A DNA stretch of 57,298 nt, from the NCBI GenBank assembly GCA_031269945.1, contig JAISYK010000010.1, positions 1-57,298 of the forward strand, written 5' to 3'. The DNA is from Candidatus Endomicrobiellum calonymphae (GTDB lineage Bacteria; Elusimicrobiota; Endomicrobiia; Endomicrobiales; Endomicrobiaceae). The position numbers and the translations under genes are program-made. Under the pieces are notes generated by a model. That model ran no database searches and was not told the origin of the DNA. It worked only from the letters and a program-made list of their open reading frames with translations. Shown one piece after another: positions 13,622-57,298 of the stretch (its first letter is position 1; each line of letters begins with the position of its first letter).

Positions 13622-14281
13622 ATGAATAGACAAATTAAGCTTTTTGTGGGATTAGGGAATGTCGGGGAAAAATATAAAAATACTCGTCATAACGTGGGGT
13701 TTGTTGTTGTAGACGAAATAGCAAAGGCAAAACAGCTTGAATTTAGAGTTTGGAACAATATGTTGATTTCCTTTTGTAAAATAGTAGGTGGTAAAGTGTG
13801 TCTTTTAAAGCCTATGACTTTTATGAATCGCTCAGGGGATGCAGTTTGTCTTTTTATGAGATATTATGGAATTGTTCCTGAGGAAGTTTTTGTTTTTTAT
13901 GACGATTTTACAATACCGATAGGTGAGTATAGGGTAAGAATGTCAGGATCTTCAGGTGGGCATAATGGAATAAATTCTATAATAGCTCGATTAAATACTA
14001 AAAATTTCCCTAGGATGAAACTTGGTGTTGGTCCTATTCCAAATTTTGTAAAATCCGAGGATTATGTATTATCAGAATTTGAAGATAATGACGAAAAAAA
14101 AATAGATACGATTAAAAAAACGGTGGTCAAGTTTTTTGATAATGTGTGTGTGTTTGGACTTGATAAAGCGGCTTCAAAAATTGCAAATAATGAAATGAAG
14201 AAAATCACCGATGATAAAAAAAAGTGTAACAATAAAGTCTTAAAAAAATGTCCCATACCCATAGTAAAAATAAAATGCTAG
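13622..14281 (+). CDS. pth: Peptidyl-tRNA hydrolase
   Basis: Pth releases peptides from tRNA after premature dissociation from the ribosome. Key motifs are present: FVGLGNVGEKY at 8-18 (usually GLGNPG), TRHNVGF with the catalytic His near 23, MNRSGDAV with the substrate Asn near 68, YDDF with the catalytic Asp near 98, and GSSGGHNGINS. Family members are about 190 residues. Here the 219-residue protein ends in an extra Lys-rich tail (KKITDDKKKCNNKV, ending KIKC) that overlaps the next gene, so the tail may be read-through created by loss of an earlier stop. Its ribosome binding site is poor, suggesting coupling to rplY. Confidence 0.92.
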   Translation: MNRQIKLFVGLGNVGEKYKNTRHNVGFVVVDEIAKAKQLEFRVWNNMLISFCKIVGGKVCLLKPMTFMNRSGDAVCLFMRYYGIVPEEVFVFYDDFTIPIGEYRVRMSGSSGGHNGINSIIARLNTKNFPRMKLGVGPIPNFVKSEDYVLSEFEDNDEKKIDTIKKTVVKFFDNVCVFGLDKAASKIANNEMKKITDDKKKCNNKVLKKCPIPIVKIKC

Positions 14282-14454
14282 TTTGTTATAAAGGATTTGT
14301 TAACGGCCCTTGTGGTGGTTTTTTCAATGGTAAGTGCGAAGTAGTTAAGACGAAAGATTGTGTGTGGGTTTTGATTTATGAAAAACTGAAAAGTGGTGAG
14401 AAATTAGAAGAATTTGTTAATAAGTATATAGAACCTAAAAAAGTAAGTTTTTAA
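14248..14454 (+). CDS. MetV-like zinc-binding protein (MTHFR C-terminal domain family)
   Basis: This small protein (68 aa from ATG 14248, or 59 aa from ATG 14275) matches the cysteine-rich domain called the methylenetetrahydrofolate reductase C-terminal domain, found in MetV of acetogenic MetVF complexes and fused to some MetF proteins. The core is CYKGFVNGPCGG, GKCEV and DCVWVLIYEKL, giving four Cys that probably bind zinc. In MetV this domain is preceded by another; here it is alone. It overlaps the 3' end of pth and lies two bases before metF, so it probably acts with MetF. Neither start has a clear ribosome binding site. Confidence 0.75.
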   Translation: MSHTHSKNKMLVCYKGFVNGPCGGFFNGKCEVVKTKDCVWVLIYEKLKSGEKLEEFVNKYIEPKKVSF

Positions 14455-44697: not shown

Positions 44698-44760
44698 TGA
44701 TCAAAATTTGCTTTTTGGGCTAAATTATTGTTTTGGATTAGTTTATATTATGGATGATAT

Positions 44761-45292
44761 GTGTATCATATGATTTCGGTTTTGGTTGGGGATAAATTTG
44801 GTGTTTTGGCAAGAATATCTATTTTTTTTGCAGAACGCGGATTTAATATGGATTCTCTTGCAGTAGACATAACTGTAAATTCGATAATTTCAAGAATGAC
44901 TGTTCTCGTAAGGGGTGTCGATTGTGTTCTTGAGCAAGTCACAACAAAGCAACTAATGAACTTTTGCCGATGTGATAAAAGTTAGTGAGTTTAATTTGAT
45001 ATCGAGGACGTTTAGTGAGGTAATTATTTTGTAAAAATGAGCTTAAATAAGTCTAATCGAGATGAAGCTAAGTCATGCATATGTTTGAAGTTTTTAGATC
45101 AAAAGTTGTTGATTAGTATATCACAACAAGATTCGCTCATTGTTGAAGTGGCCTATCCTGTAGGCCTGGCTGGGCTGGTATATGGTATAGAAAGTAGAGT
45201 TGGTGCTTCTCTTGATGGAGATGAGGATGTGGCTTGTGGTATAAAGGGAATGTGTGTAGGACGTGGTGGTTGCCGCTTTTGGTCACGGGTGA
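44761..45292 (+). pseudogene. ilvN: Acetolactate synthase small (regulatory) subunit, frameshifted
   Basis: The N-terminal ACT domain is intact: HMISVLVGDKFGVLARIS and RGFNMDSLAVDIT (44767-44875), followed by SRMTVLVRGVD and LEQVTTKQLM. Near 44962 the frame is lost: the continuation DVIKVSEFNLISR is in another frame. A second lesion near 45032 separates it from MSLNKSNRDEAKS and QDSLIVEVAYPV (45037-45165). A third near 45262 separates GIKGMC from VAAFGHG, which ends at the original stop at 45290-45292. An unusual stretch of about 16 residues also sits before GIKGM. A 74-residue ACT-only fragment could still be made from GTG 44761, which lacks a good ribosome binding site. It lies between intact ilvB and ilvC. 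Confidence 0.85.
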
Positions 45293-45373
45293 AGTGTCAT
45301 CAAAGTAGGTAAATAATTAAATTAATAAATAAAATTAAAGTATGAAACATGAGAATAAATAAGGAGAATGAAA

Positions 45374-52641: not shown

Positions 52642-53430
52642 ATGATGAGAAAATTTTCAATTGTATTGTTGATTTGTTCTTTGGCGTTAAACTTTTTTGC
52701 ATGTCAAAATGTGAGAAAAACTTATGGATTATTTTATGAGTTTAAATTTGCATCTCATCAGGAGGAAGACAAAGTACTTAAAGAAAGATCCGATGATCTT
52801 GCTGAGGCAAAAAGGAGAGAAAATAAATTTAAAATGGAATACGCAAAGAAGGTCTTTTTTTATAAGAAATTTAGTGGATTAGAAGAAATAAAACCTGTTG
52901 GAGCTAATAATTCAGAAAAATTGATACTTACTAAATCTAAAGAAGATGAAGAGGTATCAAATATTGTAAGAAGATTCAAACATAGTAACCAATGGGTAAG
53001 ACTTAGTGATATAGAGAAGCTTATGGAAGAAGCGGTGTCTCATGATTTTCAATCGTTAATGCCACCCTTGAAAGTTTATTTTTTTTATAAGCCTTTGAGT
53101 AGTGATGCCCTTCGATATGCAAAGACTTGTCATAAGAATTTGCTTGCTACTAAGAAGTATTTTTTTAGAGCGGTCCTTGTATCTAGTGGTCACGACTTGT
53201 ATTGGTGCGATGCTTTCGATCTTAACAATTCAGCTCTAATTGATAAGGTTAAGGATATTGAATATAAGAGCGTTAGTAGCTGTGACGATAAAATTAGTGA
53301 AGATGAGATTGAAATATATCAAGAGTATGGCTTAACGAAAGATGATATGGCTCGTCTTGAAAAAATGAAACTTGAACTTTTTCAAAAATATCGTGATCAC
53401 TATTTAATATTTGACACATTTAACACTTGA
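52642..53430 (+). CDS. Putative lipoprotein of unknown function
   Basis: A 262-residue protein with a lipoprotein-like signal: basic MMRK, hydrophobic FSIVLLICSLALNFFA, then Cys-21. Phe at -3 is not ideal for the lipobox. A Lys/Glu-rich, probably helical stretch (about 35-75) follows, then a mixed domain with FKHSNQWVRLSDIEKLMEEA near 114-133 and Cys residues near 171, 190 and 214. Asp/Glu-rich helices end the protein. No family is recognised. The ribosome binding site (GAGGG) is about 12 bases from the first ATG; the second ATG may be used. Decayed DNA follows, so it stands alone. Confidence 0.7.
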   Translation: MMRKFSIVLLICSLALNFFACQNVRKTYGLFYEFKFASHQEEDKVLKERSDDLAEAKRRENKFKMEYAKKVFFYKKFSGLEEIKPVGANNSEKLILTKSKEDEEVSNIVRRFKHSNQWVRLSDIEKLMEEAVSHDFQSLMPPLKVYFFYKPLSSDALRYAKTCHKNLLATKKYFFRAVLVSSGHDLYWCDAFDLNNSALIDKVKDIEYKSVSSCDDKISEDEIEIYQEYGLTKDDMARLEKMKLELFQKYRDHYLIFDTFNT

Positions 53431-55266
53431 TGTCCCCGCGTAGTATGAACTTAAACTTATTGTATTTAGATTAATATGATAGAAAAGAGAGTTGTATCTA
53501 AAAAAAATAAGATCTTAAGATAGAAACTGTCTCTAAACTCTTTCTTGCGTTTTGTTAATAAATTAAAATCTTTTTTGCGATAGTTGAGAAGAATACAATG
53601 AAAAACAAATTCTAAGTTTGCTTTGGAATTTATTGAGGGGATTTGTAAGCGATCATTAGCTTATAAAAATATAAAAGGTGATGAGTGTGTAAATAATGAT
53701 GAACAAATACATTGTTGATTAAGCTTATCGAAAAAAAAGTTGTTAATGAAATAAATTCTTACTTAGAGAATTTAAAATTGATCGGGCGTTTGATGTTGAC
53801 GGCAATAAGTTGATTAAAGTTGGCTGGGGTGTCATTTGTTTGTTAAAGCTATAATACCAGTTTTTTTTGGTTTTTGTCAGAAGTTGAGTTTAAGGGAAGA
53901 ATAATGATAATTTTTCAAAAATTTTTGAGTTATATCAAAAGGAAACTAAGAAAAAAATTAAAATCTGTTATTAACTATGCCGTAAAGGCATTAGAGATTA
54001 CAATTAATCCACAATATTTGTGTTAATAAGGAACATAATTTTAACAAAATGCTAGCTACATTGTACCCATTGATTAGAATATTTGTTGGTAATGAGTTTC
54101 TGCTGAAATATCAAGATAATTTCTTAATGCGTTGGGTAAAATTTTATGGGTTGGGGCGTTATCAAAAATAACGTAATCACACACTTATAGCAAAGAGAAA
54201 AATAAAACGAGGAAAAGAAAGTGGCAGTCGCTTTAAACGATGATTCGATTGATTTTGTCTTACCTTTCAAAATCTGCAAAAGCACAAATAGTATTTTTAG
54301 TAAAGAGGTTGCAAACAAAATGTAAACTGAGATTGTGAGATGTGAATTTATATAATTAAAAAATTGCAAAGAATTCGTGTTGTTATGAAATCTGAAAGCT
54401 CTTTTCCTAAGTAAAAATTTTGTGATGAGGGATGGGTGTTGTTTTTATAAATGCATGAGGGTTTGATTTTCGATGAATACAAAACCTATCATTCCTATAT
54501 TTGAATTTGTATCATCAAAACAATAAGGGGCGCATCTAAGCATGCAAATAATAAGACATATCAATGTTTTTTTTGTGTCAATTAAGTTTTGGGTTAATCG
54601 TTTAAATTTTATGATCTCTTTCAAATAAATCTCCGATATTATTTAACTATTTTAGTGTTTCATTAGTGTCGTTAACGTTATTTATATATTCCAGTTATTG
54701 ATTTTTAATACTATGTCTTCGACTAAAATATTTCTGTTGAATGTTGAAGTATCTTTGTAAACGATATTAAAAAAAAACACCACTATTATGCTTACGCTTC
54801 TGACTAATTTTAGCTATCAAATTTATATATTTGATTCCCGAAACGTAGCTTTTTTGATTTTGATGTAAATTTAACGAAATAATGTATGTAATAGCATAAA
54901 AAGAGTCGTATTTTGGCACGTTTAAAAATACATAGATCTTTGATTTTGTTGATTTAATTGTTAGCGTAGCACTCAGTATCTTACATTGGTATTTTAATTT
55001 TTTTTATTATACTATTTTATACTTTTCTGAGATCCATTGAAGCTTCTTGTATGTCATATAGAATAATAATTATTTGAAAGTATTTCATTTAAATCGTCTT
55101 TTAATTATCTGATAAAAATATTTTGGATTCAGTATCAGGTAAATGAAGAGCAAAAATTCAGTGAGCAAAATGAAATTAAGAGAAAATATAGTTTTTATAT
55201 CATCATTTTAAACTTCTTGCTTGCAACGCACGAGTGTATGGAATAAAGTTACATACATACTTGTTG
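53431..55266. other. 1.8 kb decayed region
   Basis: No intact frame. Plus-strand phrases around 53610-53850 (for example EKKVVNEINSYLENLK, and LAYKNIKGDECVNNDE) look like a broken gene of unknown family. A possible second remnant lies at about 53900-54000 (YIKRKLRKKLKSVINYAVKA). From about 54420 to 55260 I see nothing recognisable. Confidence 0.45.
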
Positions 55267-55278
55267 TGCTCGCGAGCA
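55267..55278. promoter_or_regulatory. Perfect 12-bp palindrome upstream of the iron operon
   Basis: TGCTCGCGAGCA is a GC-rich perfect palindrome in very AT-rich DNA, 20 bases upstream of the -35 element. It could be a protein binding site. No known regulator consensus is recognised. Confidence 0.4.
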
Positions 55279-55298
55279 ACTTATATTATGTCTTACGT

Positions 55299-55327
55299 TT
55301 GACATTAGGTTAAAAATTTTATATTAG
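55299..55327 (+). promoter_or_regulatory. Promoter of the dtxR-feoA-feoB operon with DtxR-like half-site
   Basis: A perfect TTGACA at 55299-55304 is followed by 17 bases and TATTAG at 55322-55327 (TATATT at 55320-55325 is an alternative with 15-base spacing). The spacer begins TTAGGTTA (55305-55312), identical to the left half of the DtxR/IdeR consensus. The right half is poorly matched. Autoregulation is inferred. Confidence 0.5.
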
Positions 55328-55384
55328 TCTAAAACACCGTTTTTAATTTTAAAGGCTTGAACTTGGAGAATTTAAGGAGCTTGA

Positions 55385-55852
55385 ATAATAAAAAGGATAA
55401 ATCTAAAAAAAAGAAAATATTCTAACAATTTAAGTGCTTCTCTTGAGAATTATCTTGAGGCTATTGCGGCACTAAAAAAAGTCAAAAAGTGTGCTAGAAT
55501 AGGCGACATTGCCAAATATTTAAATGTTAAAAGTTCAAGCGTTAACATTGCGGTTAACTTTTTAGCTGAAAGTGGGTTTGTGTTACATGAAAAATACGGA
55601 TATGTAGATTTGACTGAACGTGGAGAAAAAATAGCTTTAGAGGTGCAAACTAAGCATGACATATTGTACAGGTTTTTAAATAATTTATTATTTATAAACG
55701 ACGTAATAGCTGACAAAGAGGCTTGTCAAGTGGAGCATTTAGTTGGATCAGAGACTATAGAGAGGCTTAAAAGATTGCATACTCTTTTGGAAAATAATTT
55801 TTTTTCAAAGAGTAAAGATGTTGTCAATTTAAAAGAATATTTAGAAAAGTAA
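55385..55852 (+). CDS. DtxR/MntR-family metal-dependent repressor, no standard start codon
   Basis: DtxR-type proteins sense Fe2+ or Mn2+ and repress uptake genes. The frame is open from 55385 and gives 155 residues. ASLENYLEAI leads into a winged helix (ARIGDIAKYL, SSSVNIAVNFLAESGF, YVDLTERGEKIA). Then follow KHDILYRFL with a ligand-type His, and EACQVEHLVGSETIERL, matching the Cys-x2-Glu-His metal motif of DtxR. Asn-22 replaces the Met/Asp ligand near the N-terminus. The frame contains no ATG, GTG or TTG before 55580, inside the winged helix. AAGGAG at 55374-55379 lies five bases before ATA 55385, so ATA initiation is possible. Alternatively TTG 55381 starts a frame that would need a slip at the A8 run (55405-55412). 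It precedes feoA and feoB. Confidence 0.75.
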   Translation: MIKRINLKKRKYSNNLSASLENYLEAIAALKKVKKCARIGDIAKYLNVKSSSVNIAVNFLAESGFVLHEKYGYVDLTERGEKIALEVQTKHDILYRFLNNLLFINDVIADKEACQVEHLVGSETIERLKRLHTLLENNFFSKSKDVVNLKEYLEK

Positions 55853-55953: not shown

Positions 55954-56346
55954 ATGAAGCAGTTTAGAGAAGTTTTATGTTATATTTGTGGATATTTGCG
56001 TAGACACTTGCTTAGGTTCTATTTTCATAGACATATTCATCATGGAGGAATGAAAGATAAATTTGGCGATTATGAGCATATTCATAGATTTAGGTTTTTT
56101 AATGAAGATGTACCCGACAATTTTATTAAATTAAGTTGTGCTAATCCTGGAGAATATGAACTGTTTACGGCTTGTTGTGATAGAAAATTTAGATATAGAC
56201 TTCTTGAAATGGGTTTCGTTCCTGGCGGTGATTTAACTGTTATTAATAGTAATCTAAATGGAGGAGTTATGATTAAAATAAAAGGTGCTAAGATTGCTTT
56301 AAGTAATGATGTTGCAGATAAAATTTTAGTGAGAGAAAAAAAATAA
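55954..56346 (+). CDS. feoA: FeoA-domain protein with His-rich N-terminal extension
   Basis: FeoA is a small SH3-like cytosolic partner of the ferrous iron transporter FeoB. The FeoA domain fills the C-terminal half: FRYRLLEMGFVPGGDLTVI near 78-96, then GGVMIKIKGAKIALS and VADKILV. Ordinary FeoA proteins have about 75-85 residues; this one has 130 because of an N-terminal part with CYIC, several Arg, and a His cluster (FHRHIHHGG near 24-32, then HIHRF). That part may bind metal. GGAG lies six bases before ATG 55954. The stop and the feoB start share one base (TAATG). Confidence 0.85.
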   Translation: MKQFREVLCYICGYLRRHLLRFYFHRHIHHGGMKDKFGDYEHIHRFRFFNEDVPDNFIKLSCANPGEYELFTACCDRKFRYRLLEMGFVPGGDLTVINSNLNGGVMIKIKGAKIALSNDVADKILVREKK

Positions 56347-57298
56347 TGAGTACGTTAAAAAAGAATATTATAGTTGCTTTGGTGGGCAATCCTAATAGCG
56401 GTAAATCGACACTATTTAATAATTTAACTGGAGAAAATCAAAGCGTTGGTAATTATCCCGGTGTGACAGTGAGAAAAAAAGAAAGCTTAAAAAACTACAG
56501 AGATTATAGTATAAATTTTATTGATTTACCTGGCATATACAGTCTTTCGGCATATTCTGATGATGAAGTGGTAGCAAGAGATTTTTTAATCAATGAAAAA
56601 CCTGATGTTGTAATCAATGTTATTGATGCTTCTAACATGGAGCGTAATCTTTATTTATTTACGCAAATTGTAGAGTTGGGTACTCCTGTTGCGATAGTTT
56701 TGAGTATGGTTGATATTCTAAAATTACAATGTGGAACTATAGATAGGCAAACAATGTCAAATCTTTTGGGAGTTCCTGTGTTTATCGCATTGACGGATAA
56801 AGAGATAGGGATAACTAGTATTTTAGATTATATTGTAGATGTGGCAAAAAAAGAGAAATTAAAGAAACAAATATCAAACAGGGTTGATTACGGTGAAAAT
56901 ATTAAAGAAGAAATCGATAAACTTGAAAAACTTATATCAAAAGATTCCCAATTGTCAAAATTCCCAAAAAGCTGGCTTTCAATAAAACTTTTGGAAAATG
57001 ACCCTTTAGCGTTAAAACTTGTTCACGAAACAGATAAAAAAAGTATTATTTTGAACCAACTTGAAAAAAGTAGAAGTCACATAAAAAGACATTTTGGGAA
57101 GATGGCAGATGCTGAAATAGCCAACAGGCGCTACGGGTTCGCAAGCTCTGTTGTGAAAATGACCATAAAAAAAACAGGTAGAAAAAAAGTTGACATGACT
57201 GAAATTATAGATAATTTTGTACTTAATAAATATCTCGGTATTCCTATTTTTGTGGTTGTAATGTACATAATTTTTAAATTTACGTTCGTTTTTTCAGA
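56346..57298 (+). CDS. feoB: Ferrous iron transport protein B, N-terminal part (cut by window end)
   Basis: FeoB is the inner-membrane Fe2+ transporter with an N-terminal G protein. About 317 residues are inside the window. G1 is GNPNSGKS at 14-21, G2 lies in PGVTVRKK, G3 is DLPGIYSL at 60-67. G4 reads SMVD at 120-123; the family has NxxD, so the base-binding Asn is Ser here (codon AGT). The G5 region is ALTDKEIG instead of a clear SA motif. The GDI-like domain (SWLSIKLLEND, RRYGFASSVV) follows, and the first membrane helix starts at about 301. ATG shares a base with the feoA stop. Confidence 0.93.
   Translation, partial: MSTLKKNIIVALVGNPNSGKSTLFNNLTGENQSVGNYPGVTVRKKESLKNYRDYSINFIDLPGIYSLSAYSDDEVVARDFLINEKPDVVINVIDASNMERNLYLFTQIVELGTPVAIVLSMVDILKLQCGTIDRQTMSNLLGVPVFIALTDKEIGITSILDYIVDVAKKEKLKKQISNRVDYGENIKEEIDKLEKLISKDSQLSKFPKSWLSIKLLENDPLALKLVHETDKKSIILNQLEKSRSHIKRHFGKMADAEIANRRYGFASSVVKMTIKKTGRKKVDMTEIIDNFVLNKYLGIPIFVVVMYIIFKFTFVFS

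Follow-up and report, generated by a model that had tools for sequence, protein, structure and literature searches.

Substitution of ATA for the ATG start codon of a DtxR/MntR-type regulator gene upstream of feoAB in an Endomicrobium-type endosymbiont

By comparison with its orthologs, it was found that a G-to-A substitution has changed the ATG start codon of a DtxR/MntR-type regulator gene to ATA within the original reading frame. The most probable outcomes are low-level production of the regulator or its very recent loss. I favor, with a probability of about one half, weak initiation at the ATA, which would give a low level of full-length regulator and a partly derepressed feoAB operon, in a gene that is heading to loss. 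The shrinking genome may show the regulator early in its loss, when only the start codon is gone. The window, meaning the whole stretch of 57,298 nucleotides analyzed here, is contig C9 of an 808-kb draft genome (13 contigs, 83% complete). Genomes of Endomicrobium/'Candidatus Endomicrobiellum' from termite-gut flagellates match its regulator, feo operon and gene order; the window organism is an Endomicrobium-type endosymbiont. All window features whose coordinates are given below for this locus lie on the forward strand.

The regulator gene and its start region

The regulator frame (55385-55852) runs uninterrupted for 155 codons to a TAA stop codon at 55850-55852. It matches PF01325 (5e-11) and PF02742 (1e-12), both above the Pfam cut-off, and by these matches it is read as a real gene. 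The nearest solved structures are those of MntR. Ligand positions E25, H91, C114, E117 and H118 are invariant across 27 orthologs and are all present in the window regulator. It resembles the MntR/DtxR family repressors in having both family domains and in lying upstream of feoAB, and its ligand motif Cys-x-x-Glu-His is of the DtxR kind. At the position of MntR Asp8 or DtxR Met10, the window regulator (N22) and most orthologs have an Asn residue. Unlike the family repressors, it lacks a normal start codon. Judging from homology and position, the regulator is probably autoregulated and controls the feoAB ferrous-iron operon.

The feoA gene (55954-56346; PF04023) starts with ATG at 55954 and is syntenic in the genomes G001, G015 and G006. 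It is followed by the N-terminal part of feoB (56346-57298; PF02421), while the rest of feoB lies at the start of contig C11 (FeoB_C at G000:C11:568-723). The feoB frame is open across the contig break, and a truncation of feoB at the window end was rejected in favor of the break as the cause. Positions 57170-57298 of the window overlap the start of contig C11, which allows both contigs to be merged within feoB. On the other side, about 1.9 kb (53430-55290) 5′ of the regulator promoter has no recognizable gene.

The promoter (55299-55325) matches the consensus, with TTGACA at 55299-55304, a 15-nt spacer and TATATT at 55320-55325, and its position is conserved in most orthologous loci. A palindrome, TTAGTCTAA (55324-55332), overlaps the -10 element and may be an operator. 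A second, imperfect operator-like box, TTAGGTTAA, lies at 55305-55313. Such a box is found upstream of the regulator gene in most orthologs, and in 12 loci lacking the regulator no combination of promoter and box was found near feoA.

A Shine-Dalgarno (SD) sequence, TAAGGAG (55373-55379), lies 5 nt before an ATA codon at 55385-55387 and 8 nt before another at 55388-55390. A TGA codon at 55382-55384 is an in-frame stop just 5′ of the first ATA. The original prediction that this intact frame offers only ATA at a workable distance from the SD sequence was confirmed base by base. There is no in-frame ATG, GTG or TTG before codon 66, where the earliest is GTG at 55580; a start at this GTG would remove most of the DNA-binding domain. 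A gene caller restricted to ATG, GTG and TTG would shorten the regulator to 90 residues. With a 16S rRNA 3′ end taken from a same-genus genome (none was found in this assembly), the SD duplex has -7.4 kcal/mol, ranking second among 28 orthologs (mean -5.5), while those of the nearest relatives are weaker (-4.9 and -5.6).

Is the loss of a start codon common in this genome? Among 134 intact-body orthologs in about 177 kb of the genome (the window contig plus 120 kb from the contig adjoining it), the regulator is the only one that has lost its start codon without a nearby in-frame substitute, and a genome-wide start-codon problem was rejected. The other flags in this baseline are mis-calls or noise (ligA, a secA-sized gene, a short gene and an antisense frame), or a frameshift in the case of greA.

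Origin of the ATA and the neighboring A-run

All 27 intact orthologs compared have an ATG start codon in frame with the regulator. The start region was aligned for the L027, L003 and L004 loci; L003 and L027 are the closest relatives. The L003 sequence TTGA ATG GTA AAG is matched by TTGA ATA ATA AAA in the window, so that its ATG corresponds to 55385. The ATG of L027 aligns with 55388 and is followed by a 3-nt length difference; the N-termini of the regulators vary by one or two codons between species. The ancestral start would therefore have been at 55385 or 55388, with a G-to-A change and an unchanged frame in either case. Because the orthologous ATG aligns with the ATA pair, a start mutation from ATG to ATA, one of the options in the original prediction, is supported.

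Another option was that slippage restores the frame. Translation would start from a TTG codon (55381-55383), and RNA polymerase or the ribosome would skip one A of an A8 run (55405-55412). As predicted, this TTG is out of frame and needs one skipped base: its frame translates to LNNKKDKSKKKKIF followed by a stop codon, while with one A fewer it joins the regulator frame as LNNKKDKSKKRKYSNNLSASLENYLE. In Blochmannia and Buchnera, such rescue by slippage is accepted for poly(A)-frameshifted genes (PMC4389277), which the window regulator resembles in being part of an AT-rich endosymbiont genome, here with an A8 run near the gene start. Unlike in those genes, the A-run of the window leaves the frame unbroken. 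The A8 run had been placed at a frame break; since the ancestral ATG already lies in the regulator frame, no such break exists, no homopolymer frameshift relative to the intact orthologs was found, and there is nothing to rescue. The L027 locus has the same TTG and the same in-frame A8 run beside a normal in-frame ATG, and thus both are incidental in the window. In addition, the TTG is only 1 nt past the SD sequence. A/T runs of at least 8 are common in the window (79, against 43 expected from its dinucleotides), and the A8 run was rejected as a signal. Slippage rescue of the regulator was accordingly rejected as unneeded and is very improbable. A frame without ATG, GTG or TTG beside an A-run does not necessarily indicate slippage.

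Selection on the gene body and the fate of the regulator

The dN/dS ratio of the regulator is 0.37-0.40 on the window branch against a background of 0.08-0.10, a 3.8- to 4.8-fold difference. In codon models that were purpose-written rather than taken from a standard package, omega was 0.37 on the window branch and 0.098 elsewhere (2dlnL 9.1 against one ratio), and the former was not clearly below 1 (2dlnL 3.6 against omega of 1). In a three-species comparison, none of the other genes among 37 from the window shifts as much as the regulator (ratio 4.8; next 2.3), for which the corrected p is about 0.1 if it is counted as one of 37 tested. The same comparison gave no significant shift for feoA (1.0) or the N-terminal part of feoB (1.6). 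On the other hand, 15 of the 18 new residues on the window branch are found in intact orthologs, where neutrality expects 25% (P about 4e-7), and the neutral share of the new residues was estimated as 0 with an upper bound of 26%. The body has no frameshift and no stop codon. By itself the lack of stop codons is weak evidence: it is also compatible with a brief spell of neutral evolution (P 0.35 at 0.2 substitutions per codon). The raised dN/dS and the tolerated residues can both be explained if the start mutated recently, whether or not some function remains.

Thus, of the earlier suggestion that the gene is newly dead, the relaxation finds support in one selection test, while the other speaks against long neglect. 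A fresh pseudogene, in which the ATA allows no useful initiation, no regulator is made, feoAB is constitutive and the body is too young to have decayed, is a possible reading of the locus, though a less probable one than weak initiation. The raised dN/dS without relaxation of feoA and feoB fits it, and the stop-free body is compatible with it. The start signal lost and the raised dN/dS are as in the early pseudogenes of reduced endosymbiont genomes. Unlike those, the window regulator is free of stop codons and frameshifts, almost all of its new residues are of the tolerated kind, and the SD sequence, promoter and box are retained.

The state of the regulator elsewhere in the genus also bears on this point. 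A match was found in 25 of 42 genomes, comprising 19 uninterrupted genes, that of the window, and five interrupted or remnant genes (G008, G012, G016, G027 and G065). It was not found in the other 17, while feoB was found in 40 of the 42; some of these absences may be due to incomplete assemblies, and the genomes without a regulator may belong to a single clade, so that the number of losses may differ from these counts. The broken or missing regulators beside a retained feoB are in line with a fresh pseudogene in the window. As intact, broken and missing regulators occur upstream of feoAB within one genus, the order of events is testable.

The IF3 gene is present in the window genome and appears intact. 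IF3 discriminates against AUA. Weak initiation is made less probable by this intact IF3, by the raised dN/dS confined to the regulator, which fits relaxation, and by the fact that about half of the genus has a broken regulator or none. It is supported by the uninterrupted body, by the retention of the ligands, promoter and box, by the tolerated new residues, and by an SD sequence stronger than those of the nearest relatives. There are also precedents. In Staphylococcus and Bacillus, AUA-start genes such as S. aureus infC and ccpN have a strong SD sequence before the AUA, as in the window, and ccpN is likewise a regulatory gene (PMC13009471). AUA starts with extended SD sequences gave about 10% of AUG expression in S. 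aureus, and the ccpN start up to 30% in rich medium (PMC13009471). Weaker starts, GUG and UUG in the study concerned, tend to come with stronger SD sequences (PMC5622118). The AUA of infC and ccpN is conserved between species and its initiation has been measured (PMC13009471), whereas the ATA of the window is known from sequence in a single lineage; it lies within reach of the SD sequence and in frame with an intact gene, and the intact orthologs do not share it. From the precedents and the presence of IF3 together, weak initiation was ranked first and a fresh pseudogene second. Ribosomes at the strong TAAGGAG would most likely still initiate weakly at the ATA at 55385 (or 55388), so that full-length regulator is still made, in a small fraction of the amount produced before the mutation. 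This would partly derepress feoAB, and the gene would probably be lost in time, as elsewhere in the genus.

Two other readings were considered. A consensus error or a within-population polymorphism, with ATG in some or all cells, is improbable. The assembly is an incomplete multi-contig draft and the reading hangs on one base, but the gene body is independently unusual on the window branch and the start region has no other sign of misassembly. The ATA might be a selected attenuator, the ATG having been exchanged while the SD sequence was strengthened as a translational setting of endosymbiont iron uptake; this seems slightly less probable again.

Other frame breaks

Some other genes near or outside this locus have frame breaks. 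Within a stretch of about 12 codons, the regulator of G008 (L014, about 1490-1960) has an out-of-frame GTG start, an A8 run and a change of frame. Its body is intact after the frame change, and an in-frame GTG past the A8 run could be its start. In the genome of the window, but outside the window, the greA gene (L142; G000:C11 about 79,455-79,922) reads MREIYLTRLGRKRLIDELKELQKKK, after which its frame is broken at an A7 run; the closest relatives have A6 or AAAAAG at this point. The 136 codons of the greA body are intact and evolve under purifying selection (omega 0.14; 2dlnL 10.6 against 1). This may be the slippage-rescue configuration known from Blochmannia, a recent frameshift or an assembly error. 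Within the window, an ilvN remnant (about 44,750-45,350) between intact ilvB and ilvC has several frame breaks, while the gene is intact in G001. A MetV-like small protein with the motif KGFVNGPCG is encoded next to metF (about 14,195-14,450); it has a frameshift near the N-terminus relative to G001 and G015, and an in-frame ATG lies immediately 5′ of its conserved part.
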